Source: a virus. Taken from it: a stretch of 43,524 bases of DNA. A program made the position numbers and the translations under genes. The first letter of the stretch is position 1. Every line of letters begins with the position of its first letter. Of the stretch, positions 7,225-41,170 are shown in pieces. Location: the IMG/VR virus record IMGVR_UViG_3300017917_001312, positions 1 to 43,524 of that record. One strand, written 5' to 3'. Below the pieces are notes generated by a model. That model was not told where the DNA came from. It saw only the letters and a program-made list of their open reading frames with translations, and ran no database searches.

Positions 7225-7665
7225 TCATGCCCTTGCCGCTTTCAAATAACTCTTTAACTGCCACATATACTTGCCATGTAAACTCATTTGATCAGCAGCA
7301 AAGTTTGCAATGTCATCGCGACCTGCTTCGGTAGCGGCGTCAAACACCTGCTTGGTCATGTCTTTCATGGTTTGTGTATCTGCGAGTAATTCTTCTAACA
7401 TTAATCGGGCACGAGGAACTTTGATTTGTCCCTGTATTTGTGTTAATTCCTGGAAGCGTTCAAAGCTTCCTGGTGCGTATTCTTCTGAAGTACGGATATA
7501 TTCAGCAATAGGGTCAACTGCATCAAAAGCAGCTTCATAAATGTTGCTGAAAAATTCATGTAGTTCGCCAAAGTCAGGACCTTCCACGTTCCAATGAAAC
7601 ATGTGTGCCTTTAAATAGTAGGCAAATTGACTGGCCAAGTAAGTTTTTAATAAATCTGCTAACAT
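7225..7665 (-). CDS. dps: Dps-family ferritin-like protein
   Basis: 146 residues, a four-helix ferritin-like protein. The Dps intersubunit ferroxidase ligands are all present at the canonical spacing: His24 (FHWNVEG), His36 (ELHEF), Asp51 and Glu55 (VDPIAEYI), that is +12, +15 and +4 as in E. coli Dps. Dps dodecamers oxidise Fe(II) with H2O2 and store Fe(III), preventing Fenton damage; some bind DNA. There is no long Lys-rich N-terminal tail here, so non-specific DNA binding is doubtful. The TAATG start overlaps the upstream 68-aa gene. Its place inside the head-protein block is unusual and suggests virion association, but the protein itself shows no clear leader. Confidence 0.88.
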   Translation of the reverse strand: MLADLLKTYLASQFAYYLKAHMFHWNVEGPDFGELHEFFSNIYEAAFDAVDPIAEYIRTSEEYAPGSFERFQELTQIQGQIKVPRARLMLEELLADTQTMKDMTKQVFDAATEAGRDDIANFAADQMSLHGKYMWQLKSYLKAARA

Positions 7666-8164: not shown

Positions 8165-8171
8165 TATTTAG
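8165..8171 (-). promoter_or_regulatory. Late-promoter-like CTAAATA, 4 nt before a start codon
   Basis: The minus strand reads CGCTAAATACAGCATG, with CTAAATA in place of the T4 late TATAAATA core. Transcription would start at or next to the ATG of the 100-aa gene. Confidence 0.45.
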
Positions 8172-8762: not shown

Positions 8763-8945
8763 TTATTTAATTTCTCTTACTGAGCTGATTAAAGATTTAG
8801 CGCCGTACTGTTGTTTTAGGATCTGACGTGCCATATAAATGTCTTTGGCAAATACACTCACATCAGTAAACACAGGATGTGGTTGAGTGATCTTGACTCG
8901 TGCTGTAAAGACTTTAAAGCCAGCAAATATTTCTTGGGCTCTCAT
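8763..8945 (-). CDS. 60-aa small protein with MRAQE leader
   Basis: The start chosen is the ATG at 8943-8945, which overlaps the upstream stop (ATGA) and gives MRAQEIFAGFKVFTARVKIT, the same MRAQE leader as the upstream 66-aa protein. The remainder is a compact alpha/beta sequence (VFAKDIYMARQILKQQYGAK). Function unknown. An upstream in-frame start would add nine residues but loses this match. Confidence 0.6.
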   Translation of the reverse strand: MRAQEIFAGFKVFTARVKITQPHPVFTDVSVFAKDIYMARQILKQQYGAKSLISSVREIK

Positions 8946-9144: not shown

Positions 9145-12100
9145 TTATCTTACCGTTGCACGACGAACATCAAAGCGTTCTTCGTAGCCAGGTTCTGCAC
9201 CCAAGCTCTGTAGATACTGCATGGCCTGTGTTCTAGCTGCTGTACCTTCTAAATTGCTGAAGCGATGTATCACATTGCCCGAATCTCGGTCTACAATTTC
9301 CCACTCCGGAACACCCTTGGCATCTACTGCCATGGACTGTGGTGATTGTTGCGTTTGTTTAGGACGCTGAACAATGTTCTTGGCCAACTTGGCACGTGGG
9401 CTTAGAACTTTTTCTTTGGGTTCGGCATTGTAGGGTTCAATGAAGAATGGAATTACATCACCGTATTTTTCATAGGCCTGTTCGACAGCTTGATTGCGTG
9501 TGTCAGCTTGAATAATTTCTAATGTTTCTCTATTATCGCCGCGAAGCACCCGCCATTGGTTTGATCCTTCACCTACATCACGCAGAGTATAAGCACGATC
9601 AAAATCTTGCACACTACTACCAGGACTTACGGACTTCTTGGCACGTTCATGTGCTTCTTCATAATCAAAGTTGTTGTATTCTTGACCTGCAACTGGTTGT
9701 CCAGTGGAGTTATTATACAACTTCCAATTGGACTTTTTCTCAGGCACTTCTTTACTCAAGGTCTTTTCAGCCCACTGCTTTTTAAGTTGTTCTTTGTCAA
9801 TTTCTCCAGTGGCAAACTGTGTGAACAAGTTGAGTGCATCATCACCTTGGGGATTGATCAGCTTGTATAACTTCTTGGCATACTCTTTACGCTCTAGGTC
9901 AGGGCGCCCTGCTAGATACATGGCATAAGCATAGCGCATCATGGTGTTTTCTAGTTTACCTGGTTCGGCATCGCCTTCGGCCAACCAGTCACCACCTGCA
10001 CTACGAAACTCAATATACTTGCCCTGCTTGTGAGCACTAGTGTATTTGCCTTCACCAGTGCTTTTAACCAACTCACGTTCAGCCAACTCCAACAAGTTGT
10101 TGCGCAACAATTCCATCACGGAAGCAATATTACGCTCACTGCTGGCACGGCTACGAATATCCTTCATGGCAGCTTTGGTATAGGTATTTGATTCGCGGCC
10201 AAACTGTTTGAGCACGTATTCATCACCTAGGAACAAGATCAACTTCAAGTAGTCAACACGTCCTTCTTTGTAGGGAATACTCACGCCCATGTGCAGGCCT
10301 GTTGATTGATTGGTGTAGGCATTGCCATCACCATTGGCCCAGTCTGTTACTTCTTCTAGTTTCTCTAAGGCTTGTTTGAGTGGCATAGGCGGACTAACAA
10401 TTTCTAATCCACAATCTTCTTCATCGTCGGGATCTAAACTTGAGTCAGGTTCTACTATCCATAGGCCAGGCTTGCGTGTAGCTGAATGATAACCACTACT
10501 AACTTTGACCGGCATATCTATGGCATCGTGCAAGCTATCGCCAATTTCATCCCAACTACGGCTTCCGCCATAAACATCAGAACCTGTAAAATATGGCCAA
10601 CTTAAATTAAATGTGTCAGCGATGTCACTCATCCAACGCCAACCTTGATCTGAGAAGAAGCTGCTGTCATCATCCATAACAAAGTCATCGCGGAAGTTTT
10701 GCAATACTTCGTCGTAGTTGCTGTCTTCGGCAGCCAAGCATGATTCTACTTCTTCTGTTAGGATTTCGTCAGCACCTTCAGCAGCTTCTTTGTATTTGTC
10801 CAGCATGTCTAACTGTTCATCTGATAACTCACTACCTTTGATTTCGCCGTTTTTGCGACTTTCACCTAGAGCAATAATAGCTTCGGCTTGTTCGTCGGTT
10901 AGTTCCATGCCATCTACCAACATGGCCTGCAAGCGATCATGCCAAGACTGTTGTTCTAAGAAATAGTCGCGAATCAGTTCGTCTCGCTCGTCTCTCCATG
11001 AATCATACATTTGCTCATCGTGCCACTCGTAGTAGGCTTCGTCCAGCTTTTCTTCTAAGTCATTGCGTTCTCTACGGCTGAGTCCATAGCCGTATTCATC
11101 GTTGCTAAAAAACTCAATAATTTGACTTAGACTGGTGCAACGTTCGTCCATGTCATAGTCGGGTTCCATTTCACCTGAATCTTCATCACGCTGTGTGTCA
11201 CGGAAGATCAGTTCAGCTTCAAAGCCACACTGTATGCCTTCGGCTTCGGGACTGTTGGCAAACTGTTGTAAGTTACTGGCAGCCATGCGCACTTCATCTA
11301 GCTCTTCTGATTCTACTATCGTGCCTTTACGTTTAAACTGCGCTAGTTCTAAACTTAGTTTTTCAAACAGGCCATTGGGTTTAAGCTGTTGCGGCTGACC
11401 TTGACTATTTGTTTTAAGTTTTAATTTGTTTGCTTCTCGACCCACCGCCCCGGGACGAACATCTTTCGTCAGAGCCATTACATAGCGTGGATCTTTAGCC
11501 TGCTTTTTTGTTGGTATGTATCCTGAAGCACTTTCAGTAACTTCATTGCCATCCAGGTGTTCGGCTTGTCCTGCTGCAAAGAAGTCAGGATGTAGTCTAG
11601 CATAGTCACGCATTAATATACCAGCACGTGCATTGGCTTCATTTTCCCAAGGGCTACCAGTTTCACCAGCATCTGGACCCATACGAGAACCATCACGTTC
11701 GTGTTGATGTTTGTGTGTTAGTTCGTGTGCTACTGTGCGTAACACGTCCATGATATGGCGCTGACCCCAGGCCACTTCTAATAAATTACGATCATTGATA
11801 TAACGACCAAATGTTTTGTGAACCACTGCCCATTGCGGATCTTTACGCAATTTGATTTCAGGCATGTGTTCTAGTTTTAATTCTTTACTACAAAAATCAA
11901 TAAAGTCTTTTAATACTTGTTCATCGGTGGGTGCAGTATCTATGTCATCGTCAACCATGCAGGTTGTAGGATTAGTTCCGTCGGGACTCAGGCCCACTTC
12001 GGTCAATTCAGACTCGTGTCTAAATCCGTATGTGAATACTGAATGTGGTCGACGACGTTCTTTAAGACTGAGCTCTTGATTTTTGGCTTCTATTCTGGCA

Positions 12101-12762
12101 TCATGCAATTTTTTAAGCACACCCTGACTGCGCAGGATTTTAAATGCTAGATTTTCAGGACCAAATTCGCCGTGTTGTTCTAGGCCGGTTTGACGCATAC
12201 GCTTGATCTTACGGGCCATGCGATCCATCTTTTCACGACTGCCAGTTTTAACAGCACGTTCAATAGCATGTCCTACTGTTTCAAACTTGTTGCGTGTAGC
12301 AGTGTCATCCACAGTGGCTCGGGCTCTGCGTGGAACCTGTAACCATTTATCCTGTAGCAGGCTATAAGTGCCCTGACTCACCGGTGGCTTGTCTGCGGCT
12401 TCCACATATAGTTCTACATCAAAGCCTCGAATTTTAATATCATGTGTGTCGTTGTACTGTGCTTTTTTGGCATCAAACAATTCACGGTACACAGGATCTT
12501 CGGGTTGATCAACCACAAGATGTAGATCAATATCACTACTGGGAGTATATGTATAAGCAGCATTGGAACCACTTATAGTAATGTCTTTAAGAGCTAGATC
12601 TGAGATGCCTAGACTTTCACGAAAATCTTCTGCAATTAATAATAATTGAGCACGGACATCGTCACGTAGGTGTTCATTTGAGTCCCATAATTTAGGGTTT
12701 AAATGATCATTGAACTTGACAGCATCGTCAAGATTGTAGGCATCTAATTCTTGAATATTCAT
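9145..12762 (-). CDS. 1205-aa multidomain protein: nucleotidyltransferase, zincin protease, amidoligase-like
   Basis: The start is set at the ATG 12760-12762 (MNIQELDAYN), 5 nt after an ATAAATA late-promoter motif; an upstream in-frame ATG would place the promoter inside the gene. Residues 62-84 hold a nucleotidyltransferase signature (GSNAAYTYTPSSDIDLHLVV: Gly-Ser, then Asp77 and Asp79). Residues 340-375 hold a zinc-metalloprotease motif HELTH (346-350) with a downstream WENEANA glutamate. From about 510, CGFEAELIF, a distant EIVSPPMP, GLHMGVSI and IEFRSAGGDW fit the amidoligase (glutamine-synthetase-like) family. Between them, L-T-E/V (253-256) and V-T-E/S (408-411) look like prohead-protease sites at the domain borders. 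Probably a packaged, processed polyprotein. Confidence 0.75.
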   Translation of the reverse strand: MNIQELDAYNLDDAVKFNDHLNPKLWDSNEHLRDDVRAQLLLIAEDFRESLGISDLALKDITISGSNAAYTYTPSSDIDLHLVVDQPEDPVYRELFDAKKAQYNDTHDIKIRGFDVELYVEAADKPPVSQGTYSLLQDKWLQVPRRARATVDDTATRNKFETVGHAIERAVKTGSREKMDRMARKIKRMRQTGLEQHGEFGPENLAFKILRSQGVLKKLHDARIEAKNQELSLKERRRPHSVFTYGFRHESELTEVGLSPDGTNPTTCMVDDDIDTAPTDEQVLKDFIDFCSKELKLEHMPEIKLRKDPQWAVVHKTFGRYINDRNLLEVAWGQRHIMDVLRTVAHELTHKHQHERDGSRMGPDAGETGSPWENEANARAGILMRDYARLHPDFFAAGQAEHLDGNEVTESASGYIPTKKQAKDPRYVMALTKDVRPGAVGREANKLKLKTNSQGQPQQLKPNGLFEKLSLELAQFKRKGTIVESEELDEVRMAASNLQQFANSPEAEGIQCGFEAELIFRDTQRDEDSGEMEPDYDMDERCTSLSQIIEFFSNDEYGYGLSRRERNDLEEKLDEAYYEWHDEQMYDSWRDERDELIRDYFLEQQSWHDRLQAMLVDGMELTDEQAEAIIALGESRKNGEIKGSELSDEQLDMLDKYKEAAEGADEILTEEVESCLAAEDSNYDEVLQNFRDDFVMDDDSSFFSDQGWRWMSDIADTFNLSWPYFTGSDVYGGSRSWDEIGDSLHDAIDMPVKVSSGYHSATRKPGLWIVEPDSSLDPDDEEDCGLEIVSPPMPLKQALEKLEEVTDWANGDGNAYTNQSTGLHMGVSIPYKEGRVDYLKLILFLGDEYVLKQFGRESNTYTKAAMKDIRSRASSERNIASVMELLRNNLLELAERELVKSTGEGKYTSAHKQGKYIEFRSAGGDWLAEGDAEPGKLENTMMRYAYAMYLAGRPDLERKEYAKKLYKLINPQGDDALNLFTQFATGEIDKEQLKKQWAEKTLSKEVPEKKSNWKLYNNSTGQPVAGQEYNNFDYEEAHERAKKSVSPGSSVQDFDRAYTLRDVGEGSNQWRVLRGDNRETLEIIQADTRNQAVEQAYEKYGDVIPFFIEPYNAEPKEKVLSPRAKLAKNIVQRPKQTQQSPQSMAVDAKGVPEWEIVDRDSGNVIHRFSNLEGTAARTQAMQYLQSLGAEPGYEERFDVRRATVR

Positions 12763-12767
12763 GATTG

Positions 12768-12774
12768 TATTTAT
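12768..12774 (-). promoter_or_regulatory. Late promoter ATAAATA, 5 nt before a start codon
   Basis: The minus strand reads ATAAATA-CAATC-ATG. No Shine-Dalgarno sequence fits between the motif and the ATG, so a leaderless late mRNA for the 1205-aa gene is expected. Confidence 0.6.
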
Positions 12775-12828
12775 TGGATAAACAAAAGCCGCTGTCAAAG
12801 CGGCCTGTGTTTTAATTGTTAAAAATGA

Positions 12829-13800
12829 TTACTTTTTGGCTTTGGCCTTGGCTTTTGGCGCAGGTTCTGCTTTGGCTTTGGCCACAGGTTCTGCCTTTTT
12901 GCTTTTGGCCAAAACTTTGGCCACTGGCTTGGGCGGTTCTGCTGTGACTGTTGTAACTGGAGCTGCTACAGCTGGTTGAGCTGTGGCTGGAGCACCTACT
13001 ACATTGCCTAGAGCCGCGCCGTTTTGCAAGGCTAGGGTATGTAGATCACGATACAGTTGATCCTGTTGCTGGAAGTCAAATACGTATGTGCCGGTGTGCT
13101 TTAATAACACACGCTTGTCTACCCAGACATCACCACCTAGATCACGCCAGTTTTCACAGAAAGTCCAGTCCTCTGAATAGTAACGATTTTCACGTACTGC
13201 TGTGTCAAAATAGGTCTTCATGTAGGGATTTAATTCGGCAGGCAGGCCAATGTCATTTAAGAATGGTTTTGTAGCAGGATGAGCATTTAATTTCTCAAAC
13301 ACATGACGTTTAATTAATAAAAATCCTGTGCCAGTTTTTGAAACTTCCTGTAAGGGACCTTCTTCTCTAGCGCCTTCAAAGCCATTTACACACCATTTAA
13401 CTGGCAAGCTCTTCATTGGGTATAGGCCACCAATCACGTCTTTGTCGGCATTTAACATTACTAGCAAATGCCAAGGTTCCCAACCAATGTCAGCGTCAAT
13501 AAACATCAGGTGTGTGGATTCTTTATTGTGCAGGAATTTGGCTGTGAGTGTATTTCTAGCACGACTAATTAAGGACTCGTTAGTCATGGTTTCCATGGTC
13601 CAATCCAGGCCCAGCTGACGTGCAGCGTTAGACCATTTGATATAGCTCATGAATGTGGATTCTGTCAGCATACCACCGTAACATGGCATACAAATATGAA
13701 CTCGGGTGGTTTTTAAATAATCAATGTTTACTTGAATTTGTTGCTGTCCTGGGTTTGCGCCCTCGGCAGGAGTTTGTGCAGTTGGTTGTGCGTCAGCCAT
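12829..13800 (-). CDS. GT-A type glycosyltransferase with Lys/Ala/Pro tail
   Basis: 323 residues. The catalytic domain shows the Anp1/GT-A-like pattern of T4-type phage glycosyltransferases: VHICMPCYGGML, LISRARNTLTAKFL, a D-x-D strand (HLMFIDADIGWEPW), GTGFLLIKRHVFEKL, and YYSEDWTFCENWRDLGGDVW with the acidic residue near the acceptor. It would transfer a sugar from a nucleotide donor to DNA, protein or a surface glycan; the acceptor is unknown. The last about 60 residues are a low-complexity Ala/Pro/Lys tail (KSKKAEPVAKAKAEPAPKAK), possibly for nucleic-acid binding. AAGGA precedes the ATG. Confidence 0.75.
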   Translation of the reverse strand: MADAQPTAQTPAEGANPGQQQIQVNIDYLKTTRVHICMPCYGGMLTESTFMSYIKWSNAARQLGLDWTMETMTNESLISRARNTLTAKFLHNKESTHLMFIDADIGWEPWHLLVMLNADKDVIGGLYPMKSLPVKWCVNGFEGAREEGPLQEVSKTGTGFLLIKRHVFEKLNAHPATKPFLNDIGLPAELNPYMKTYFDTAVRENRYYSEDWTFCENWRDLGGDVWVDKRVLLKHTGTYVFDFQQQDQLYRDLHTLALQNGAALGNVVGAPATAQPAVAAPVTTVTAEPPKPVAKVLAKSKKAEPVAKAKAEPAPKAKAKAKK

Positions 13801-13827: not shown

Positions 13828-13834
13828 TATTTAA
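13828..13834 (-). promoter_or_regulatory. Late-promoter-like TTAAATA with normal leader
   Basis: TTAAATA lies about 28 nt upstream of the glycosyltransferase ATG, leaving a leader that contains AAGGA. It contrasts with the leaderless arrangement at neighbouring genes. Confidence 0.35.
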
Positions 13835-13844
13835 TACAGTTTGT

Positions 13845-14594
13845 TCAGTGCGATTTTTTTTCGTCGGCGTAGTCAAATTGCAGTTGAATTTTTTCTCGGA
13901 GTAGTTGAATTCGTGCTCGATTTACACGGCTTTCGCGCATGATGCCGACCTTGCCTTCGCCACCATCTACAATGGGTGTACCGTAGCTGACAATTTCGTC
14001 AACAGTATTGGCACCTAGTTCTTGATCGAAAATGGCCTGTAGTTCTGCATTGGGCGCACCGTATAAATCGGTAATAATGGCTTCGTGGTCTTGATCACTG
14101 CCTTTTTTGTATAATTCACGTACTTGGCTGGCACTGTTGGCATCTGCACCGCGCACTTTAAAGTTCACTGTGGGTGTGATCACAACATAACCGGCCTTGC
14201 TCATGGGTTTTAATTTCGTTAAATTATCCGGCAAGGGTTGCAAGTAGCTGGGCTCGCCATTCTTTTTGGGTTTGAAATTAAATCGTTCTGCATCCTTGGC
14301 ACTGACAGCAAATACCAAGGCTGTGGTGGCCTTTTCTTCAGGAGTTAAATTATCGGTAATTTCTCGTACTTGATAAGGATTGCGTGTTTGTACCACATGA
14401 CTGGCTGGAATACCTAATGTAGTGATCATTTTAACCTTGTCAGTATAGCTGAATGGCGAATCGGTATCATTTTGTACATTACTGGTAGCAATATAAACAC
14501 CATCACTAAACTTGTTGGTTAACCAATCATAGCTGGCTTTATGCCCCAAATGAAACGGATGAAAACGACCAGGATAAACCACTAAGATATTCAT
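13845..14594 (-). CDS. Cytidylyltransferase-like nucleotidyltransferase (HxGH)
   Basis: 249 residues from the ATG at 14592-14594. MNILVVYPGRFHPFHLGHKA carries the HxGH motif (His15-Leu-Gly-His18) of the nucleotidyltransferase superfamily that includes NMN and pantetheine-phosphate adenylyltransferases. A later ADANSASQVRELY segment resembles the second nucleotide-binding motif. The substrate cannot be told from sequence; NAD salvage or sugar-nucleotide supply to the adjacent glycosyltransferase are both possible. The C-terminal third is helical and charged (RVNRARIQLLREKIQLQFDY). An ATAAATA motif sits 5 nt before the ATG. Confidence 0.78.
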   Translation of the reverse strand: MNILVVYPGRFHPFHLGHKASYDWLTNKFSDGVYIATSNVQNDTDSPFSYTDKVKMITTLGIPASHVVQTRNPYQVREITDNLTPEEKATTALVFAVSAKDAERFNFKPKKNGEPSYLQPLPDNLTKLKPMSKAGYVVITPTVNFKVRGADANSASQVRELYKKGSDQDHEAIITDLYGAPNAELQAIFDQELGANTVDEIVSYGTPIVDGGEGKVGIMRESRVNRARIQLLREKIQLQFDYADEKKSH

Positions 14595-14599
14595 GTTAA

Positions 14600-14606
14600 T
14601 ATTTAT
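14600..14606 (-). promoter_or_regulatory. Late promoter ATAAATA, 5 nt before a start codon
   Basis: ATAAATA-TTAAC-ATG on the minus strand, with no Shine-Dalgarno sequence. It lies just upstream of the nucleotidyltransferase start, in the short gap after the previous gene. Confidence 0.6.
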
Positions 14607-14608
14607 GG

Positions 14609-15046
14609 TTACATGTTTTCCAACAACCACATGTAAATTGGTGATGTAAAGGATAAAGTTACTGTGCCGTTACAGCCTAGAGTACCGTAGAATTTTTGTT
14701 GTGTTGGTTCAGCAGTGCCATTGAAATCATGCTCGTAAACTGCTTGTTCTGCCAGTACATGCCCTAGACCGATGTCATCAAACGCCACAGAATTCACTGT
14801 GAGACAAGCATCTTTAACTATTTGACCCTGCGCATCCACTGTGGTATGATCAGACTGTTTGTTTTTCATAACAATACGTAAGACATGATCTCCGTCAAAA
14901 TCTTCAAAGGCTTGTCTGACCTTTACTGTTTCGGTCACGTGTGCGGAATCAAACAACTGTGCGTGATCCAGCCAGATTTCACAGCCCAAGGCCGCCGCAG
15001 GATCAGTTGTGCTGATCTCACAAGAAAATACTGCTGAATTTTTCAT
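14609..15046 (-). CDS. 145-aa beta-rich structural or ligand-binding protein (paralogue of 38206..38856)
   Basis: Beta-sandwich-like. The segment HVLRIVMKNKQSDHTTVDAQ plus GQIVKD aligns with [20 protein letters not shown] plus GNILEN in the 216-aa protein at 38206..38856, in the same order relative to an upstream EIWLDHAQLF / [10 protein letters not shown] strand. The two are probably paralogous domains. Function unknown; the fold looks like small carbohydrate-binding-type domains. It lies in a run of structural genes starting 9 nt after the upstream stop. Confidence 0.6.
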   Translation of the reverse strand: MKNSAVFSCEISTTDPAAALGCEIWLDHAQLFDSAHVTETVKVRQAFEDFDGDHVLRIVMKNKQSDHTTVDAQGQIVKDACLTVNSVAFDDIGLGHVLAEQAVYEHDFNGTAEPTQQKFYGTLGCNGTVTLSFTSPIYMWLLENM

Positions 15047-15589: not shown

Positions 15590-15596
15590 TATTTAT
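15590..15596 (-). promoter_or_regulatory. Late promoter ATAAATA, 7 nt before a start codon
   Basis: AGATAAATA-ATACACT-ATG on the minus strand. The motif overlaps the stop codon of the upstream gene (AGA TAA) and has no room for a normal leader. Confidence 0.5.
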
Positions 15597-25697: not shown

Positions 25698-26255
25698 TTA
25701 AAGAATGCCAGCAGCAACTTGAATTGCTTGTAGGTCTCGGTCTTTTTTGTCGTAGTTGCTGACAGGATGAATACCAGCGGCCACTCGCATTTCGTTTAGG
25801 CCTTGATCAATTTTTTCTCTGTAGGCCTTGGGACTTAGCGGAACCAAGCTGTCAAATGTATCGCGTGTGAATGGAACTTCTTTGCCACGATAGTGCATGG
25901 TCCAATCAGAACTCTTGTCAAACTCAGTCAAGGTTCCTAGGTCAGTCAACAACTCATCTACCTGTGCGCCTGCTGTGCTGCGACGGCGTATTTCTACATA
26001 GACCAAATAACGATTGGGTTTGATTTCACCTGGTGAACGATCAGCATCGACAACAAAGTCGTAGCCTTTTTCAAACCAATTCATTAGATCCTTAGCAGCA
26101 CTTTCATCACGTACAAAGAAGCTGACAACAATGATATCGTCATCGTCGCCCATTTTGGAACTAAACTCATCCACATGAATAGTAGGTTTGAGGAGGCCTT
26201 CCATGTCCTTGTAGTTCAGGGCTTCAAAAAGATTATTGGAGTTGGTCTTGTGCAT
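25698..26255 (-). CDS. 185-aa conserved T4-type phage protein
   Basis: MHKTNSNNLFEALNYKDMEG, then HVDEFSSKMGDDDDIIVVSF plus FVRDESAAKDLMNWFEKGYD and PGEIKPNRYLVYVEIRRRS. I recall this sequence pattern as a conserved unknown next to the 189-aa protein family in cyanophages and other T4-like phages. The domain resembles an alpha/beta unit; no catalytic motif. It overlaps the upstream gene by 23 nt. Confidence 0.65.
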   Translation of the reverse strand: MHKTNSNNLFEALNYKDMEGLLKPTIHVDEFSSKMGDDDDIIVVSFFVRDESAAKDLMNWFEKGYDFVVDADRSPGEIKPNRYLVYVEIRRRSTAGAQVDELLTDLGTLTEFDKSSDWTMHYRGKEVPFTRDTFDSLVPLSPKAYREKIDQGLNEMRVAAGIHPVSNYDKKDRDLQAIQVAAGIL

Positions 26256-26802
26256 TTTGGGCAGTCTGGTCGTTTTGGTATTCTTCTTTGTCTAGATCTT
26301 GCTCGTATGCAGTATCCAGATCCTCAAGATCAACTTCTTGATCTTCTAGTTCAATTGAGCCGGTGCGTATATCGCTCATCAAGCTCTTGGGCATGGTTAT
26401 TTCTACCAACCATACCTTTTTTTCCATTAGTTTGGCCTTGTGTGTTCCTGGAACAAAATCGCTAGGATCATCGATTTTCATAGGCACTTTCATGTTGACT
26501 TTTTTGTACTTGACTGTGCAGTCAAATGGCAACAGTCTACGTCCACCACGTGGATCAGGCATGAGTGATTCGGGCCACATAAAAATACAACTCACTGTGT
26601 ATTTTTTAATTTCAGGACCCTGTACCAATTCACCAATGATCCAGTTTTTAAAAGCATAGATATCTAATTCATCCAACACACGCTCAAAGTCCAGGAGGGT
26701 CAGCAGTGAGCCCTCACTCATGTAGATGTTTTTAATGTTATCGGCTACTTGCCAATAGTCAGCACCATCTTTAAATATGGGTTGGTCAAATTTATTGCTC
26801 AT
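26233..26802 (-). CDS. 189-aa conserved T4-type phage protein
   Basis: MSNKFDQPIFKDGADYWQVA, then GSLLTLLDFERVLDELDIYA plus FKNWIIGELVQGPEIKKYTV, SLMPDPRGGRRLLPFDC and a highly acidic tail. I recall a conserved family in T4-like marine phages, usually next to the preceding gene's family. Function unknown; a role near the head or neck is possible. The ATG is 5 nt after an ATAAATA late-promoter motif with no Shine-Dalgarno sequence. Confidence 0.65.
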   Translation of the reverse strand: MSNKFDQPIFKDGADYWQVADNIKNIYMSEGSLLTLLDFERVLDELDIYAFKNWIIGELVQGPEIKKYTVSCIFMWPESLMPDPRGGRRLLPFDCTVKYKKVNMKVPMKIDDPSDFVPGTHKAKLMEKKVWLVEITMPKSLMSDIRTGSIELEDQEVDLEDLDTAYEQDLDKEEYQNDQTAQNAQDQLQ

Positions 26803-26807
26803 GTAAT

Positions 26808-26814
26808 TATTTAT
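26808..26814 (-). promoter_or_regulatory. Late promoter ATAAATA, 5 nt before a start codon
   Basis: ATAAATA-ATTAC-ATG on the minus strand, driving the 189-aa and 185-aa genes. Same spacing as at 12768, 14600 and 40949. Confidence 0.6.
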
Positions 26815-26976
26815 GGTCTATTAGATATACCGAACAGTTTGAAGATTTACCGGACAGCTTAATACTTATGCCGGTAGAATGCAAATAGTCAGCCCATAAA
26901 ACTCTAAAATATTGCGCCTAAATACACAGGACAGCATGGTGCTGTCAGTATTAACTTCTACAAAACGGAGTACAAC
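26815..26976 (+). promoter_or_regulatory. Divergent control region upstream of phoH
   Basis: Holds a plus-strand CTAAATAC (26918..26925), then a perfect 7-bp hairpin GACAGCA-TGG-TGCTGTC (26930..26946) near the predicted 5' end of the RNA, and a CGGAG ribosome-binding site before the TTG start. Farther upstream are direct repeats taccgaacag (26828..26837) and taccggacag (26848..26857), exactly 20 bp apart, and an inverted ccggta (26871..26876), an operator-like layout. Confidence 0.45.
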
Positions 26977-27714
26977 TTGAGTAGACACAGAGCAGTAAAG
27001 TCACAAAAACGTCAAAATATGACACATCAAGAAAACACCATACGCTTCGAACAAGCAAAACCAGTCAAACAACGAGCCATTGATATCGTGCCACGTACAC
27101 GCAATCAAGAACGCTTGGTACTGGCGTTGCAAGATGATTCGCAGTCGATTGTGGTAACAGCAGGGCCAGCAGGAACAGGTAAAACCTATCTAGCGATGTT
27201 GGCCGCGGTTAAGGCCTTTAGGGAAGGAGAAGTAGACCGCATAGTATTAACACGCCCAGCGGTGGGCGTAGAGGATGAGAAACATGGTTTCTTGCCCGGC
27301 GACTTAAACCAAAAGATGGATCCGTGGGTACGGCCATTAACAGACATTCTTCGCGAGTATTATCGTCAACCCGATATAGCCGCTATGATCGCCGAGCAGG
27401 TAATTGAAATTGCGCCACTGGCTTTTATGCGAGGACGAACTTTCAAGGGTGCTTACATTATTGCAGACGAAATGCAAAATGCCACACCCAGTCAGGTAAA
27501 AATGCTAATGACCCGTATTGGCGAAGGCAGTAAAATAGTAATCACGGGCGACGTTGAACAGGCGGACCGAAACCGCGGCAACAATGGTCTATTAGACCTA
27601 TGCCAAAGACTCGAGAAAGGGGGTGTAAAGGGTATAGCTGTATGCGAGTTGGATAATCGCGACATACAGCGGCACAGAATTATTGATTCTGTGTTACAAC
27701 TTTACGCTGACTGA
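26977..27714 (+). CDS. phoH: PhoH-like P-loop ATPase, TTG start
   Basis: 245 residues. The TTG start (with CGGAG 7 nt upstream) gives MSRHRAVKSQKRQ, like other phage PhoH N-termini; the first ATG is 13 codons in with no such site. Walker A GPAGTGKT (63-70), then VLTRPAVGVEDEKHGFLPGD, RGRTFKGAYIIADEMQNATP (Walker B DE) and KMLMTRIGEGSKIVITGDVE are the PhoH family signatures. PhoH proteins are ATPases linked to RNA metabolism or phosphate stress in bacteria and are common in aquatic phages. It converges with the HAD gene with a 13-nt overlap. Confidence 0.93.
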   Translation: MSRHRAVKSQKRQNMTHQENTIRFEQAKPVKQRAIDIVPRTRNQERLVLALQDDSQSIVVTAGPAGTGKTYLAMLAAVKAFREGEVDRIVLTRPAVGVEDEKHGFLPGDLNQKMDPWVRPLTDILREYYRQPDIAAMIAEQVIEIAPLAFMRGRTFKGAYIIADEMQNATPSQVKMLMTRIGEGSKIVITGDVEQADRNRGNNGLLDLCQRLEKGGVKGIAVCELDNRDIQRHRIIDSVLQLYAD

Positions 27715-28358: not shown

Positions 28359-28643
28359 CTAACTTTGTGGTGATTCTGCTTTGATTTCAATAGGATGCCC
28401 GTTCTCACTAAACAGTCGTTCCATGATTGCAGGATAAAACGGGTAGTAATAGCTGATGATACGATCCCAATCTTTGGGAATGGTATTTTCTCTTAGACTG
28501 GCTTTGAGAACTTTCTGCTCTTTAAAATCCAGGATTACACTGGCAGTTTGCCAATCTTTGGTTCTAACACGATTGGTCACAGTCATGCCTTCATCAATCT
28601 TGCCATTGGCCTGATAAAAATAAGTTAGTAGTAGGTATCTCAT
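28359..28643 (-). CDS. 94-aa conserved T4-type phage protein
   Basis: From the ATG at 28641-28643, which overlaps the upstream stop (ATGA): MRYLLLTYFYQANGKIDEGM, VILDFKEQKVLKASLRENTI, PKDWDRIISYYYPFYPAIME. I recall this as a conserved small protein in T4-like aquatic phages (PKDWDRI). Function unknown. An upstream start adding 28 residues would overlap the radical SAM gene heavily and is less likely. Confidence 0.7.
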   Translation of the reverse strand: MRYLLLTYFYQANGKIDEGMTVTNRVRTKDWQTASVILDFKEQKVLKASLRENTIPKDWDRIISYYYPFYPAIMERLFSENGHPIEIKAESPQS

Positions 28644-29773
28644 TGATAATCTTTCTGATATTTTTTGATTATTTGATTGTAAGTCGTTAAGTCTTTGGCT
28701 TTGGGTGCGCAAAGACCACAAAAGCAAACAGTCTTTTTACATTGTATTACAGGTAAGTTTTTGCTGTCAAGTTGATTGGTTAATGTATCCAGGATTTCTT
28801 GGGTGTTTGACAAGGTACCAATGGGCCCAACTGCACCAGCAAAATTCATTTGGCAATCTTTGTTGACAAAAACTTCTCCAGTAACCTGTTTGACATACAA
28901 GAAAAACCAATTTACACTACAGTACCAATCAGGAAACTTGTTGTCTAAAACAAAAAAATTACGTTGTTGATAGTTTTGATCTTGACAAGTTTGCCGACCA
29001 CCACAGCAGGCTCTACCGGTGTTGCTGAGATTCAGCTGTTGGTCAGAAGGTGTCTTGAGTTTTTGACTTGTTCCGTAGGTTTTAGATTGATACAGTTGAT
29101 TAAACCATGTGACTTGTTTTGAACTATAGTTGTTTTTTGCAGCAGTTGTGTCATCCAACTGTCTAGGTAGCATTTTGATACCGTTGTGTTCTAGCCATAC
29201 TATCATGTCCTGTGCATCAGCAAAGTAAGGTTCCTGATCATTCATTAGCACTATGCATTTGACTGGTGTACCAGCTGATTGTATGGTCAACAAGTTTTCT
29301 TTGAATTGTTGTTTTTGCTTGGCACTGGCTTCGGTATGATAGCTTACTGTAAACTCATCTATGTAGGGCAGTATGCTCAATAGCTTTTTAACAGGCACAA
29401 TAGCATTGGTAGTTGTGGTAACTGTCAGACTCCATCGATCTTTATAGGCATGATACTTGTTGCGTACTTCGCCAAGTATCTTTACAATGTCTGGATGATG
29501 CAGGGCTTCACCACCGTACACATTCAACACCACAGTTCTGAGTCCCTTGGGTTTGAATCGCATGTATTGATCCACATACTCAAACATAAAGTCCAGAGTT
29601 TGTAAGCATTCATCCAAAGGCGGATGTTGTGTGCTGTTGTCGTGCCCACCATACAGTCCTTTTTCGCAATAGCTACAGTTTAGATTGCACTTCATGGTCA
29701 ATTCCCAATCCAATAGAAAACTAATTCTATTAGCAGGGTCTATTGCCGGTTCAAGGACTTCAAAGTCAGGCAT
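28640..29773 (-). CDS. Radical SAM enzyme with Cys-rich C-terminus
   Basis: 377 residues. DWELTMKCNLNCSYCEKGLY carries the CxxxCxxC cluster motif (Cys29, 33, 36). VVLNVYGGEALHHPDIVKIL is the GGE SAM-amine motif. Downstream, ACCGGRQTC and CKKTVCFCGLCAPKA suggest an auxiliary Fe-S cluster like SPASM/twitch domains. Family members modify peptides, tRNA or metabolites through a 5'-deoxyadenosyl radical; substrate unknown. It sits directly after the gp44 gene (TAATG overlap), where T4 has gp62. Confidence 0.85.
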   Translation of the reverse strand: MPDFEVLEPAIDPANRISFLLDWELTMKCNLNCSYCEKGLYGGHDNSTQHPPLDECLQTLDFMFEYVDQYMRFKPKGLRTVVLNVYGGEALHHPDIVKILGEVRNKYHAYKDRWSLTVTTTTNAIVPVKKLLSILPYIDEFTVSYHTEASAKQKQQFKENLLTIQSAGTPVKCIVLMNDQEPYFADAQDMIVWLEHNGIKMLPRQLDDTTAAKNNYSSKQVTWFNQLYQSKTYGTSQKLKTPSDQQLNLSNTGRACCGGRQTCQDQNYQQRNFFVLDNKFPDWYCSVNWFFLYVKQVTGEVFVNKDCQMNFAGAVGPIGTLSNTQEILDTLTNQLDSKNLPVIQCKKTVCFCGLCAPKAKDLTTYNQIIKKYQKDYQ

Positions 29774-32318: not shown

Positions 32319-32325
32319 TATTTAA
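32319..32325 (-). promoter_or_regulatory. Late-promoter-like TTAAATA overlapping a stop codon
   Basis: CGTTAAATACAG on the minus strand, overlapping the TAA of the DnaE-like gene and preceding the 162-aa gene, with a normal AGAGGA leader. It would add late expression to the second half of this operon. Confidence 0.4.
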
Positions 32326-37831: not shown

Positions 37832-37871
37832 AGAATTGAGTCCTCTGCATATATTTAGCAGAGTTCTATGG
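37828..37871 (-). promoter_or_regulatory. Hairpin with late-promoter motif in its loop and start codon in its arm
   Basis: On the minus strand: CCATAGAA (37864..37871), CTCTGC, loop with CTAAATATAT (CTAAATA 37852..37858), GCAGAG (37858..37863 pairs with 37843..37848), a 7-nt bulge, then TTCTATGG (37828..37835) holding the ATG. The AGAGGA ribosome site is also in the 3' arm. Confidence 0.7.
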
Positions 37872-37885
37872 CTTAAGGTTTTGGG

Positions 37886-38209
37886 CTAGTATGGGTTAAA
37901 ACTGCTACCGCAACCACAGGTGCTTTGTGCGTTGGGATTATCTATTACAAAACTTGCACCCATTACACCATCATTGTAGCGTATTTTGGCATCGTGTAGA
38001 TACTGCCAACTCATGCTGTCTACCAGCACTGAAACACCGTCAATGTCGGTAGTGAAGTCGTCATCGTTTTGTACATTGTCCAAGGTAAATCCGTACTGCA
38101 TGCCCGAGCATCCACCGCCCTGTACAAACACTCGAAGTTTTAAATCTGGGTTGTTTTCCTCAGCCAAGATGTCTTTGATTTTTTCAACGGCAGTTGTTTC
38201 TATGATCAT
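37886..38209 (-). CDS. erpA: A-type Fe-S cluster carrier (ErpA/IscA-like)
   Basis: 107 residues. [17 protein letters not shown] with Cys34 and the C-terminal CGCGSSF with Cys98 and Cys100 are the three cluster ligands of A-type scaffold/carrier proteins (HesB family). It would accept [2Fe-2S]/[4Fe-4S] clusters from IscU and pass them to apo-enzymes; the radical SAM enzymes encoded nearby are plausible clients. AAGGA precedes the ATG, which overlaps the upstream stop. Genes of this type are known in aquatic phages. Confidence 0.93.
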
Positions 38210-38856
38210 TTGCGTTCCTTTAGTTGTTGTTCTAAAATTCTTATGTCCTTGACCGTATTTACAATATCATTCAGCAAGTTCAAATCTGGCCACTTTTCGT
38301 GTGGGTCATCTTTGTTTTTGAGTTTGGCAATACTGGTTGTGATTGGAATGGGCAAGGTCAATCGCCAGGTACCATTTTCGTACATGTCCAGGCTGTGGGT
38401 TGGTTCTACACTAAGTCCGTGCTGTTGATAGTAGGCAAGTTTGTCCGGATCAAGATCCATAGTGTAACTGCCCAACAGCGGCATGGTTTCATTGTCAATG
38501 ATGTCAATGCCGTTGATCAGCAATTCTTTGATAGATAAACTTTGATTTTCTAAAATATTACCCTGAGAGTCCACCACTGTATCTTTATTGGTCTTTTCAA
38601 CATATTTGATTTCAAGAACCTTGTGTGACAACGACATGTCGAGTTTTTCAGAGTACTGAAACTCAAAGCCTGTGTTGTCGCACTGTGCTGTAGCAACCGG
38701 TTGGCCATCCACTAGAATCTGCAATTCTGGCCAACGACCTGCCGCAGGTGTTCCTGAGAATTTTAGGCTAAAATCAAACCGATCAAACCGACAGTAGTCA
38801 ATGATATCCGTGGGTATCAGATAGTCTAGATTAGTTTGTTGTGAGTAGTGTTTCAT
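38206..38856 (-). CDS. 216-aa beta-rich protein (paralogue of 14609..15046)
   Basis: After an N-terminal [20 protein letters not shown] it has [34 protein letters not shown] plus [19 protein letters not shown], the same strand order as the protein at 14609..15046. The C-terminus is a coiled-coil ([35 protein letters not shown]). Likely a small structural or glycan-binding protein. The start overlaps the radical SAM gene by 26 nt. Confidence 0.6.
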
Positions 38857-40366
38857 CTAGTGCTTTTTGTAAATCCTGCTTGATTTGTTTTAACTTTTGT
38901 AAATTTTGATAGTCGATTCCAACTCCTAGTCTGGACAAAGGATAGCCCAAGGAATCAACCAACAGCAAAGTAGTTAGTCGGTTTAGGGATCTTCGCATGT
39001 AATCGTTGCCAGGATCGTGCTTGCTTAACCATTGTGTATCATCGTAGGGATCCAAGATCAAGCCCAATTCGTCGGCAGCTTCGTGTAGATAGGTTCCACT
39101 GTTGACCATCAAGGGTTGTCCAATGCTCACTTTGATAATGGTGCCGGATGCAATATAAGGTTGGCAGTCGATAAGAAACTTTAAATTTTCATAAAAGTAT
39201 TCTAGGGTTTCGTTGTAAAATCCACTGAACATCAAAAAGGTACAGGTAATCTTGTTTTTTCTAAACTGTTCAAGTTCGTCAAACACATCTTGTGCAGTCA
39301 TTTTCTTTTTCATAGCAGCCAACACAGCGTTACTGCCGCTTTCAACACCAATCTTCAAATCAATCACGCCCGAACGTGCCATCAAGGGATAAATGTCGCT
39401 GGGAGTGTGTGCCTGTGGACGACAGATGTATTGTCCAAACCAATGTATTTGTTCATGGTAGGGTCGATTATCGTTGTAATCAGCTATGATGGTTAGCCAC
39501 TGCTTGAATGCTTTGAAACTTCCATTGACCAGACTGTCAGTAAATTCAAACACACTGACCCCGTGTTTTTCTTTTAGGTAAATCATTTCGTTGGCAATAT
39601 CTTCGCCTGAGCGGAAACTGAAACGTCCATACTGTCCAGGAATGTCACAGAATGTACAGGACCGTACGCATCCTTTGCTGCCGGTAATCGGTAAGGATAC
39701 TCCATCAGTCCAAACATATTCTGAAATTCGATAATCGTCGTAGTTGGGTACCGGTGTTTTAAAAATCACAGTTACGTTGTTGAACACACCTTCAAATGGT
39801 TTGTTGGTTCCAAGTTCTTTTTCAAGTATGTCAATCAGCTCGTCTAGGCCACTGCCTAGTATGACGTAGTCGGCTAGGCCTTGTTCGGTTAAGTATTGAT
39901 GGAAGGGCTTGATCATGTCTATCTTTTTGATAGCTATGCCAAAGTTACTCAAACTGTTACAGGTAACCGGTAGGCCCATACCGCCCAGGATAATTTTCGT
40001 GTTGGGCATGCGCCGACGTATTTCTTGTGCCAGGAGATATGTACTGCGATGTTGGAACGCTGTAAACACACTGAGTCCAATGATTCTAGGATTGACCGCT
40101 TGGATTTTGGCAATAGATTCATCCAGCCATTGCTGGCATGTTGCCGAAGCAACATCGTCAAATGATTCACTGGGTCTAAATATACCACTCAGTTGATGAT
40201 AAGTTTCTGGATTACGATCGCATTGATTAATAAAAAATTCCAATGATAAATCCAGTGCGGTTGCTGTAAAGCCAGCCTGCTCCACTGCTGATCTTAAAAT
40301 AGCAGGTGCGCCTGGCATACGGTCAAGAACCAATGCAGGCATTGAACAGATTACAATGTCTTTCAT
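38831..40366 (-). CDS. B12-binding-type radical SAM enzyme
   Basis: 511 residues. The N-terminal 180 have a cobalamin-binding-like Rossmann layout (IIGLSVFTAFQHRSTYLLAQ, IILGGMGLPV, DYVILGSG). Then GSKGCVRSCTFCDIPGQYGR gives CxxxCxxC (Cys233, 237, 240), and FEFTDSLVNGSFKAFKQWL, LKIGVESGSNAVLAAMKKKM and ITCTFLMFSGF are later radical SAM barrel motifs. No clear DxHxxG B12 motif, so cobalamin binding is uncertain. Substrate unknown; methylation or C-C bond formation are typical. No Shine-Dalgarno sequence precedes the start. Confidence 0.85.
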   Translation of the reverse strand: MKDIVICSMPALVLDRMPGAPAILRSAVEQAGFTATALDLSLEFFINQCDRNPETYHQLSGIFRPSESFDDVASATCQQWLDESIAKIQAVNPRIIGLSVFTAFQHRSTYLLAQEIRRRMPNTKIILGGMGLPVTCNSLSNFGIAIKKIDMIKPFHQYLTEQGLADYVILGSGLDELIDILEKELGTNKPFEGVFNNVTVIFKTPVPNYDDYRISEYVWTDGVSLPITGSKGCVRSCTFCDIPGQYGRFSFRSGEDIANEMIYLKEKHGVSVFEFTDSLVNGSFKAFKQWLTIIADYNDNRPYHEQIHWFGQYICRPQAHTPSDIYPLMARSGVIDLKIGVESGSNAVLAAMKKKMTAQDVFDELEQFRKNKITCTFLMFSGFYNETLEYFYENLKFLIDCQPYIASGTIIKVSIGQPLMVNSGTYLHEAADELGLILDPYDDTQWLSKHDPGNDYMRRSLNRLTTLLLVDSLGYPLSRLGVGIDYQNLQKLKQIKQDLQKALDETLLTTN

Positions 40367-40394: not shown

Positions 40395-40943
40395 TTACAA
40401 ACGTTCGTTACAAACTGACCAGTCGATGATTTTCCAGATGTTGTCTAGATAACGCTCTTTGTCGCTTTGATAGTCCAAGGCCCAGGCATGTTCCCACCAG
40501 TCTACTAGAACACAGATATCTGTTCTAACCTGATGATTTGGGATGGTTTTAATCGTGCCCGATGTGCTAAGATATACCCAACCCGATCCCTGGATGGCCA
40601 TGGCCACCTTTTTAAACTCATCTTTAAAGTCTTCATAGGTTTTGAAGTTGCTTTCAATTAGTTCTAGCACAGCACCTTTAGGACGGTTGGCACCTTTGGG
40701 AGCCTTCAACTGTGGAAAGAATTTGTTATGTAAAAACGATCCAGCACGGTTAAAGTTGGCATTGCCTTCACCGGCATTGTAGCGTTTGGCATAGCCTTTG
40801 GCTAGGTGCTCGTAGTGATAGTCAATGGTAGCACGACTCATCACAGGCTCTAGGGCCTTTTCTGTATAGGGCAAGGGTGTAGTTTCCAGCTTGGCTGGTC
40901 TAGTGCTGGCTTCTACGAGATTGATTTGTTCACGCATGTTCAT
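40395..40943 (-). CDS. sod: Fe/Mn superoxide dismutase with N-terminal capsid-targeting-like leader
   Basis: 182 residues. Metal ligands conserved: His43 (DYHYEH), His72 (FLHNKFF), Asp148 and His152 (VDWWEHAWALDY). The usual second-shell His30 of bacterial enzymes is replaced by Leu, though the equivalent Tyr34 is kept. The catalytic core follows an extra leader MNMREQINLVEASTRPA, where L-V-E/A (9-12) is a prohead-protease-type site; cleavage would leave a normal-length enzyme. It would convert superoxide to H2O2 and O2. The start is 5 nt after ATAAGTA. Confidence 0.92.
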   Translation of the reverse strand: MNMREQINLVEASTRPAKLETTPLPYTEKALEPVMSRATIDYHYEHLAKGYAKRYNAGEGNANFNRAGSFLHNKFFPQLKAPKGANRPKGAVLELIESNFKTYEDFKDEFKKVAMAIQGSGWVYLSTSGTIKTIPNHQVRTDICVLVDWWEHAWALDYQSDKERYLDNIWKIIDWSVCNERL

Positions 40944-40948
40944 ACTAT

Positions 40949-40955
40949 TACTTAT
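40949..40955 (-). promoter_or_regulatory. Late-promoter-like ATAAGTA, 5 nt before a start codon
   Basis: ATAAGTA-ATAGT-ATG on the minus strand. It overlaps the IF-1 stop codon (AGA TAA). Same spacing as the ATAAATA promoters at 12768, 14600 and 26808. Confidence 0.5.
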
Positions 40956-41170
40956 CTGCGACGAACTATTCGTCCGCGAGTTAAATCATATGGGCTGAAT
41001 TCTAGCTCTACTACATCACCGGCCAGAACTTTAATGTTGTTTTGACGCATACGGCCTGACAGGCTTGCGAGTACGGGCTTTTCAAAGTTTTCTAACTGCA
41101 CCCGGTATTGTGTGTTACGCAGAACTTCTGCTATAACACCTTCCATCTTAATAAAATCATCTTTGCTCAA
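40952..41170 (-). CDS. infA: Translation initiation factor IF-1, TTG start
   Basis: 72 residues, full length for bacterial IF-1. MSKDDFIKMEGVIAEVLRNT, YRVQLENFEKPVLASLSGRM, RQNNIKVLAGDVVELEFSPY and DLTRGRIVRRR match the S1-like OB fold throughout, including the SGRMR(Q/K)N and SPYDL(S/T)RGRI signatures. It would bind the 30S A site during initiation. The only in-frame start that gives the full N-terminus is TTG; AAGGAG lies 13 nt upstream, further than usual. ATAAGTA at 41196..41202 is a candidate promoter. Confidence 0.95.
   Translation of the reverse strand: MSKDDFIKMEGVIAEVLRNTQYRVQLENFEKPVLASLSGRMRQNNIKVLAGDVVELEFSPYDLTRGRIVRRR

Follow-up and report, generated by a model that had tools for sequence, protein, structure and literature searches.

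Late transcription in bacteriophage T4 serves as the textbook example of phage promoters activated by a sliding clamp; its boxes are followed by a leader that carries a Shine-Dalgarno site. Leaderless genes of bacteria have been recognized in silico through a promoter -10 box placed some 12 bp ahead of the start codon (PMC3160421), and the translation of leaderless mRNAs has been described as preferring AUG (PMC9031893). A paper on phage AR9 remarks that phage transcripts are often leaderless, and the transcripts of AR9 itself have leaders of 26-491 nt (PMC5312081). No report of leaderless late mRNAs of the T4 type was found in the literature searched, with the primary transcription paper of phiKZ lying outside that body of work.

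Here we describe a group of giant environmental T4-like phages in which boxes resembling the T4 late promoter stand only a few nucleotides before start codons. Judged from genome sequence, these boxes are very probably T4-type late promoters that would yield leaderless mRNAs at spacings of 4-5 nt, or near-leaderless ones at a spacing of 7 nt. As far as the literature searched shows, the clade, in which the boxes of a large share of late genes would be placed so as to do away with the leader, would be the first with a leaderless T4-type late regulon.

Late-type boxes and predicted genes in the window

The window, by which we mean the whole 43.5-kb stretch of DNA analysed, is a linear IMG/VR record and thus possibly a fragment. 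Its gp44-type clamp loader, Clp ATPase and virion protein place it among the jumbo T4-like phages, and by the clamp loader its closest cultured relative is PA5oct (56% identity). An Rfam scan of the window returned no known RNA element. All nine ATAARTA boxes lie on the coding (minus) strand, with none on the plus strand. A first-pass annotation had reported ATAAATA or ATAAGTA exactly 5 nt before ATG, with no Shine-Dalgarno sequence, at four genes, and all four read so (Table 1). The 4-nt and 7-nt cases that it listed (starts 8160 and 15582) are likewise present, as are late-like genes with a normal leader (starts 37831, 32294 and 13800). When nine sites were placed randomly, or random A/T-rich 7-mers were used, two trials in 100,000 brought at least four boxes to a common distance from an ATG that opens an ORF (P ~2e-5).

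Table 1. Boxes, predicted genes and neighbouring features of the window (distances are from box to ATG)
Feature	Position	Strand	Remarks
Box ATAAATA + CAATC + ATG	box 12768..12774, run 12774-12760	minus	5 nt to ATG 12762
Gene with ATG 12762	9145..12762	minus	1205 aa, Amidoligase_2 domain; phrog_36119 at N-terminus; predicted leaderless
Intrinsic-terminator-like hairpin	12780..12805	minus	GCCGC/GCGGC stem, then TTTTGTTT; between gene 12829-13800 and box
Box ATAAATA + TTAAC + ATG	box 14600..14606, run 14606-14592	minus	5 nt to ATG 14594
Gene with ATG 14594	13845..14594	minus	cytidylyltransferase-like, CTP_transf_like (PF01467); predicted leaderless
Box ATAAATA + ATTAC + ATG	box 26808..26814, run 26814-26800	minus	5 nt to ATG 26802
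Gene with ATG 26802	26233..26802	minus	virion structural protein, phrog_12928; predicted leaderless
Second box ATAAGTA	26863..26869	minus	60 nt upstream of ATG 26802
Box ATAAGTA + ATAGT + ATG	box 40949..40955, run 40955-40941	minus	5 nt to ATG 40943
Gene with ATG 40943	40395..40943	minus	Fe/Mn superoxide dismutase (PF02777, PF00081); predicted leaderless
Box CTAAATA	8165..8171	minus	4 nt to ATG 8160, 100-aa protein
Box ATAAATA	15590..15596	minus	7 nt to ATG 15582, 54-aa protein; possibly 3-nt leader
Weak box TTAAATA	8764..8770	minus	7 nt to ATG 8756, 191 aa; absent from the first-pass list
Box CTAAATA, leadered contrast	37852..37858	minus	20 nt + GAGG motif before ATG 37831
Box TTAAATA, leadered contrast	32319..32325	minus	24 nt + AGAGG before ATG 32294
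Box TTAAATA, leadered contrast	13828..13834	minus	27 nt + AAGGA before ATG 13800

The PA5oct orthologue of the gene starting at 26802 is annotated as a virion structural protein (ESI-MS/MS). The box of this gene is sited in the spacer adjoining its nearest upstream neighbour, a divergent PhoH gene on the plus strand (26977-27714), and the second box farther upstream could be the source of a leadered transcript of the same gene.

Several other features of the window deserve mention in their own right. A hairpin-forming GCGGACGAATAGTTCGTCGC (40958-40977, minus strand), with no T run, lies immediately upstream of the superoxide dismutase box. An inverted repeat, ACATGT...ACATGT (14611-14634, minus), occupies the same position relative to the cytidylyltransferase box, and one of its arms (aacatgtaacc) is kept in relative G012. 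Together with superoxide dismutase, the fragment encodes a ferritin-like protein (7225-7665, minus) and an Fe-S assembly protein (37886-38209, minus), a trio that suggests management of iron and oxidative stress. There are also two radical-SAM proteins, one (38831-40366, minus) having a weak B12-binding match and the other (28640-29773, minus) scoring below Pfam's cut-off. Finally, the phage encodes a periplasmic solute receptor of the TctC/Bug type (PF03401; 23211-24176, minus); this family is frequent in Burkholderiales, and the host may thus be a member of that order.

Spacing between box and start codon in relatives

Three viral-contig searches of IMG/VR gave 238 related loci, many of them on contigs of 200-350 kb. 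In 4.26 Mb of IMG/VR sequence from related contigs, spacing was taken as the distance between ATAARTA and an ATG that opens an ORF of at least 50 codons; pattern counts on whole records without this ORF filter are less clean. At spacings of 4, 5, 6, 7 and 8 nt there are 24, 90, 20, 81 and 8 sites (223 altogether), followed by 0, 1, 0 and 0 sites at 9, 10, 11 and 12 nt, and then by a second class spread broadly over 15 to about 40 nt. Relative G012 has 31 sites at 4-8 nt and about 47 at 14-40 nt, so that some two fifths of its box-linked starts are close.

The spacing in related genomes, on which the first-pass annotation had let its claim depend, is far from random: the two-peaked distribution holds over 87 protein families, 35 of which have a modal spacing of 4-8 nt and none a modal spacing of 9-12 nt. 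The constancy that it had proposed stands for the four window sites at 5 nt and gives way in the relatives to a range of 4-8 nt with modes at 5 and 7. Spacing 5 is found in 22 families, and most of the spacing-7 sites come from three. The gene at 14594 has a spacing of 5 in the window and of 7 in G012; more generally, the spacings of orthologues move between 5 and 7 and hardly ever reach 9-12.

The pattern is tied to a particular sequence. In a de novo count of all 7-mers at each offset over 4416 starts, ATAAATA at -12 comes out on top (79 occurrences versus 7 expected), which puts the close class at the ~12-nt distance used for bacterial leaderless genes (PMC3160421), and ATAAATA at -14 is likewise high. 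CTAAATA and GTAAATA show the same spacing behaviour as ATAAATA in the relatives, and TTAAATA does so weakly; one-base variants such as ATAAAAA, ATAAATT and ATACATA produce no spacing peak there. Neither six permuted 7-mer boxes nor the reverse complement gave a peak-and-gap pattern in the relatives, and a strand-independent A/T-rich signal was rejected on this ground. Two of the permuted boxes do have small isolated peaks, presumably through overlap with the real box.

Promoter identity and rival explanations

Close and far sites differ in their translation signals. A Shine-Dalgarno motif, scored as GGAG, GAGG or AGGA, accompanies 1.3% of the close sites (4-8 nt) versus 75% of the far sites (15-45 nt), and the start codons at spacings of 4-8 are 189 ATG, 2 GTG and 5 TTG, in keeping with the AUG preference of leaderless translation (PMC9031893). 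T immediately precedes the ATG in about 66-78% of cases at spacings of 5-8 and in 46% at spacing 4, and A occupies this position in 2-22% of the close classes versus 35% of leadered genes. A T at this position forms the pyrimidine-purine initiation dinucleotide expected of a transcript whose +1 is the A of ATG. Counted by family, 72% of the spacing-7 class have A at box +5, which makes a 3-nt leader an alternative there; spacings of 5 and 7 could both put +1 on the A only if the start site shifts. The near-empty interval of 9-12 nt may reflect leaders that are too short for a Shine-Dalgarno site, yet no longer leaderless.

The core itself is TATAAATA-like (ATAARTA, CTAAATA or GTAAATA) and is enriched upstream of starts in the relatives; the first T (-13) of the T4 8-mer consensus is not kept in the clade boxes, and some sites have G instead of A at one core position. 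A conserved element on the -35 side was looked for in the spacing-5 logo, where no base exceeds 0.45 from -24 to -15. Since the late box of T4 extends from about -13 to -6 (PMC2988020), a 5-nt gap would set +1 on the A of ATG, and the prediction of the first-pass annotation, drawn from the same geometry and from sequence only, agrees with this. Of 13 long relatives, 12 encode a gp55-type sigma factor (E 1e-61 to 1e-85), the window phage being known from a 43.5-kb fragment. The open frames of these sigma factors (L260-L271) have about 300-360 codons, compared with 185 aa in T4 gp55, and so carry extra sequence. A gp44-type clamp loader is present; for the gp45 sliding clamp, the one model used (phrog_223) finds none in the 13 relatives or PA5oct, where the protein may be too divergent, and the remainder of the T4 late machinery is therefore hypothetical for the clade. 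In PA5oct and GAP32, orthologues have an ATAAATA-type box 24-36 nt upstream, with a leader; the box is shared, and what differs in the clade is its distance to the ATG.

Four other accounts of the close boxes have to be weighed. That the spacing arises by chance or by shared ancestry of a few genes is scarcely credible: the dominance of three families among spacing-7 sites would suit it, yet the family-level histogram refutes it, with modes at 4-8 nt in unrelated families and orthologues that shift between 5 and 7, as does the rarity of a shared spacing in the randomized window. An annotated ATG that is wrong, with the true start further inside the ORF and an mRNA that is normally leadered, has next to no probability either. 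Nothing in the window genes was found to favour an internal true start, and none of the five tested has, within 30 codons, a further start in frame that is preceded by a Shine-Dalgarno motif; among close sites as a whole, 3 of 227 do. When homologues with close boxes are aligned pairwise, the match begins at residue 1 in 1648 of 1989 pairs, seven families mix close and leadered members with the same N-terminus in both, and the depositors of the cultured Xanthomonas phage XacN1 independently annotated the same ATGs at three close sites (ORF233 at 126974, ORF234 at 128288 and ORF267 at 158321). On the N-terminal alignments and the rarity of internal Shine-Dalgarno starts, a wrong start codon was rejected. 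Genes without a Shine-Dalgarno site frequently have A/U-rich upstream regions, so the box might instead be a translation element within a longer mRNA, such as an S1-type enhancer or an unstructured ribosome site, and no promoter. We regard this as very improbable, because the exact 7-mer matters, permuted and one-base variants giving no peak, and because the same box recurs 15-40 nt upstream of Shine-Dalgarno-led genes and upstream of the leadered orthologues in PA5oct and GAP32; a gp55-type sigma is also present in the clade.

The remaining account accepts the close boxes as promoters but has the protein made mostly from read-through mRNAs, by translational coupling or re-initiation, with the leaderless transcript minor. 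Close sites do crowd the ends of upstream ORFs: a stop lies within 40 nt upstream at 150 of 221 (about two thirds), and within 10 nt at 75 of them versus 13 of 206 leadered sites, with another 75 at 11-40 nt. At these sites read-through and coupling may therefore contribute, and the window genes at 14594, 15582 and 40943, with gaps of 14, 10 and 8 nt (the last to a doubtful ORF of 72 aa), would fit. At the other 71 close sites, however, which come from 20 families, the 40 nt upstream contain no stop of a same-strand ORF, and spacing 5 dominates among them (45 of 71). The divergent PhoH gene upstream of 26802 also speaks against it, as does the terminator-like hairpin at 12762, which is followed by T-rich sequence and kept in G012. 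INDEPENDENCE from upstream transcripts is predicted at 12762, where this hairpin would isolate the gene; 7% of close boxes have a terminator-like hairpin in the 60 nt preceding them, versus 0.8% in shuffles. Coupling, moreover, would leave spacings of 9-12 nt unemptied, and as the main source of protein it is unlikely. A separate arrangement was seen in G012, where two divergent predicted leaderless genes have starts 39 bp apart (L304; G012:C1:141242 and 141281), so that each box lies in the shared spacer and the neighbour on that side is divergent.

Transcription from T4-type late promoters directly at the start codon thus remains the preferred explanation. Host RNA polymerase with the phage gp55-like sigma would read the boxes, presumably late in infection. 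At spacings of 4-5 the first transcribed base would be the A of the start codon, and at spacing 7 transcription would begin within about 3 nt of it; the 5'-end AUG would then be bound by 70S ribosomes along the leaderless route. In the same genomes, a second class of late promoters would provide leaders of about 10-35 nt, most of them containing a Shine-Dalgarno site. The leaderless late reading of the first-pass annotation is supported in this form by the lack of Shine-Dalgarno sites, the near-exclusive use of ATG, the T-A dinucleotide and the gp55-type sigma, with the refinement that 7-nt sites may carry a 3-nt leader.

Whether the division of the late regulon into leaderless and Shine-Dalgarno-led mRNAs serves as a regulatory device, the two classes being translated differently late in infection, perhaps via a phage bS21, is a tentative and rather doubtful extension. 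A phage-encoded bS21 is found in 8 of 13 long relatives (G001, G002, G005, G007, G008, G010, G011 and G012), as well as in PA5oct and Atu_ph07. As the sole cause of the pattern, bS21 was rejected, given its presence in 8 of the 13 relatives and in PA5oct, which has bS21 yet no pattern; a phage-encoded IF3 was dismissed too, none being found in the 13 relatives.

Distribution and comparison with known systems

The close-spacing pattern is clear in XacN1, with 19 sites at 4-8 nt (17 distinct) versus 2 at 9-13, and weak in the pelagiphage Mosig, with 6 sites at spacing 5. It is absent from T4, PA5oct, GAP32, S-WAM1 and, over the roughly three quarters of its genome covered, Atu_ph07, and the idea of a general T4-like trait was rejected on these absences. 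So patchy a distribution implies either repeated gain of the pattern or its loss in several lines. Orthologues that switch between leadered and leaderless forms offer natural experiments on the reasons for leader loss, and with XacN1 in culture a laboratory test of the question is possible.

The clade boxes share with the T4 late promoters (gp55/gp33/gp45-dependent TATAAATA; PMC2988020) the same core at the -10 position and the lack of a visible conserved upstream element, and the clade encodes a gp55-type sigma. The difference lies in placement, as the first-pass annotation had held in calling the arrangement unlike the usual T4 picture: of 32 T4 boxes, none is 4-8 nt ahead of an ATG that opens an ORF, and they are found mainly 14-32 nt upstream. 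PA5oct has a homologous gene block, a gp55-type sigma and ATAAATA upstream of the virion-protein and superoxide dismutase orthologues, but its boxes precede the start by about 24-25 nt, with no 4-8 nt class. Lambda cI and other leaderless mRNAs (PMC9031893), for which use in a T4-type late regulon is not known, resemble the present genes in their AUG-dependent 5'-end AUG, which is here predicted from box geometry. With the leaderless genes of bacteria (PMC3160421), the clade shares a box about 12 nt before the ATG and the lack of a Shine-Dalgarno site; there, however, the box is the -10 element of the host sigma-70, whereas here it would be that of a phage late sigma.
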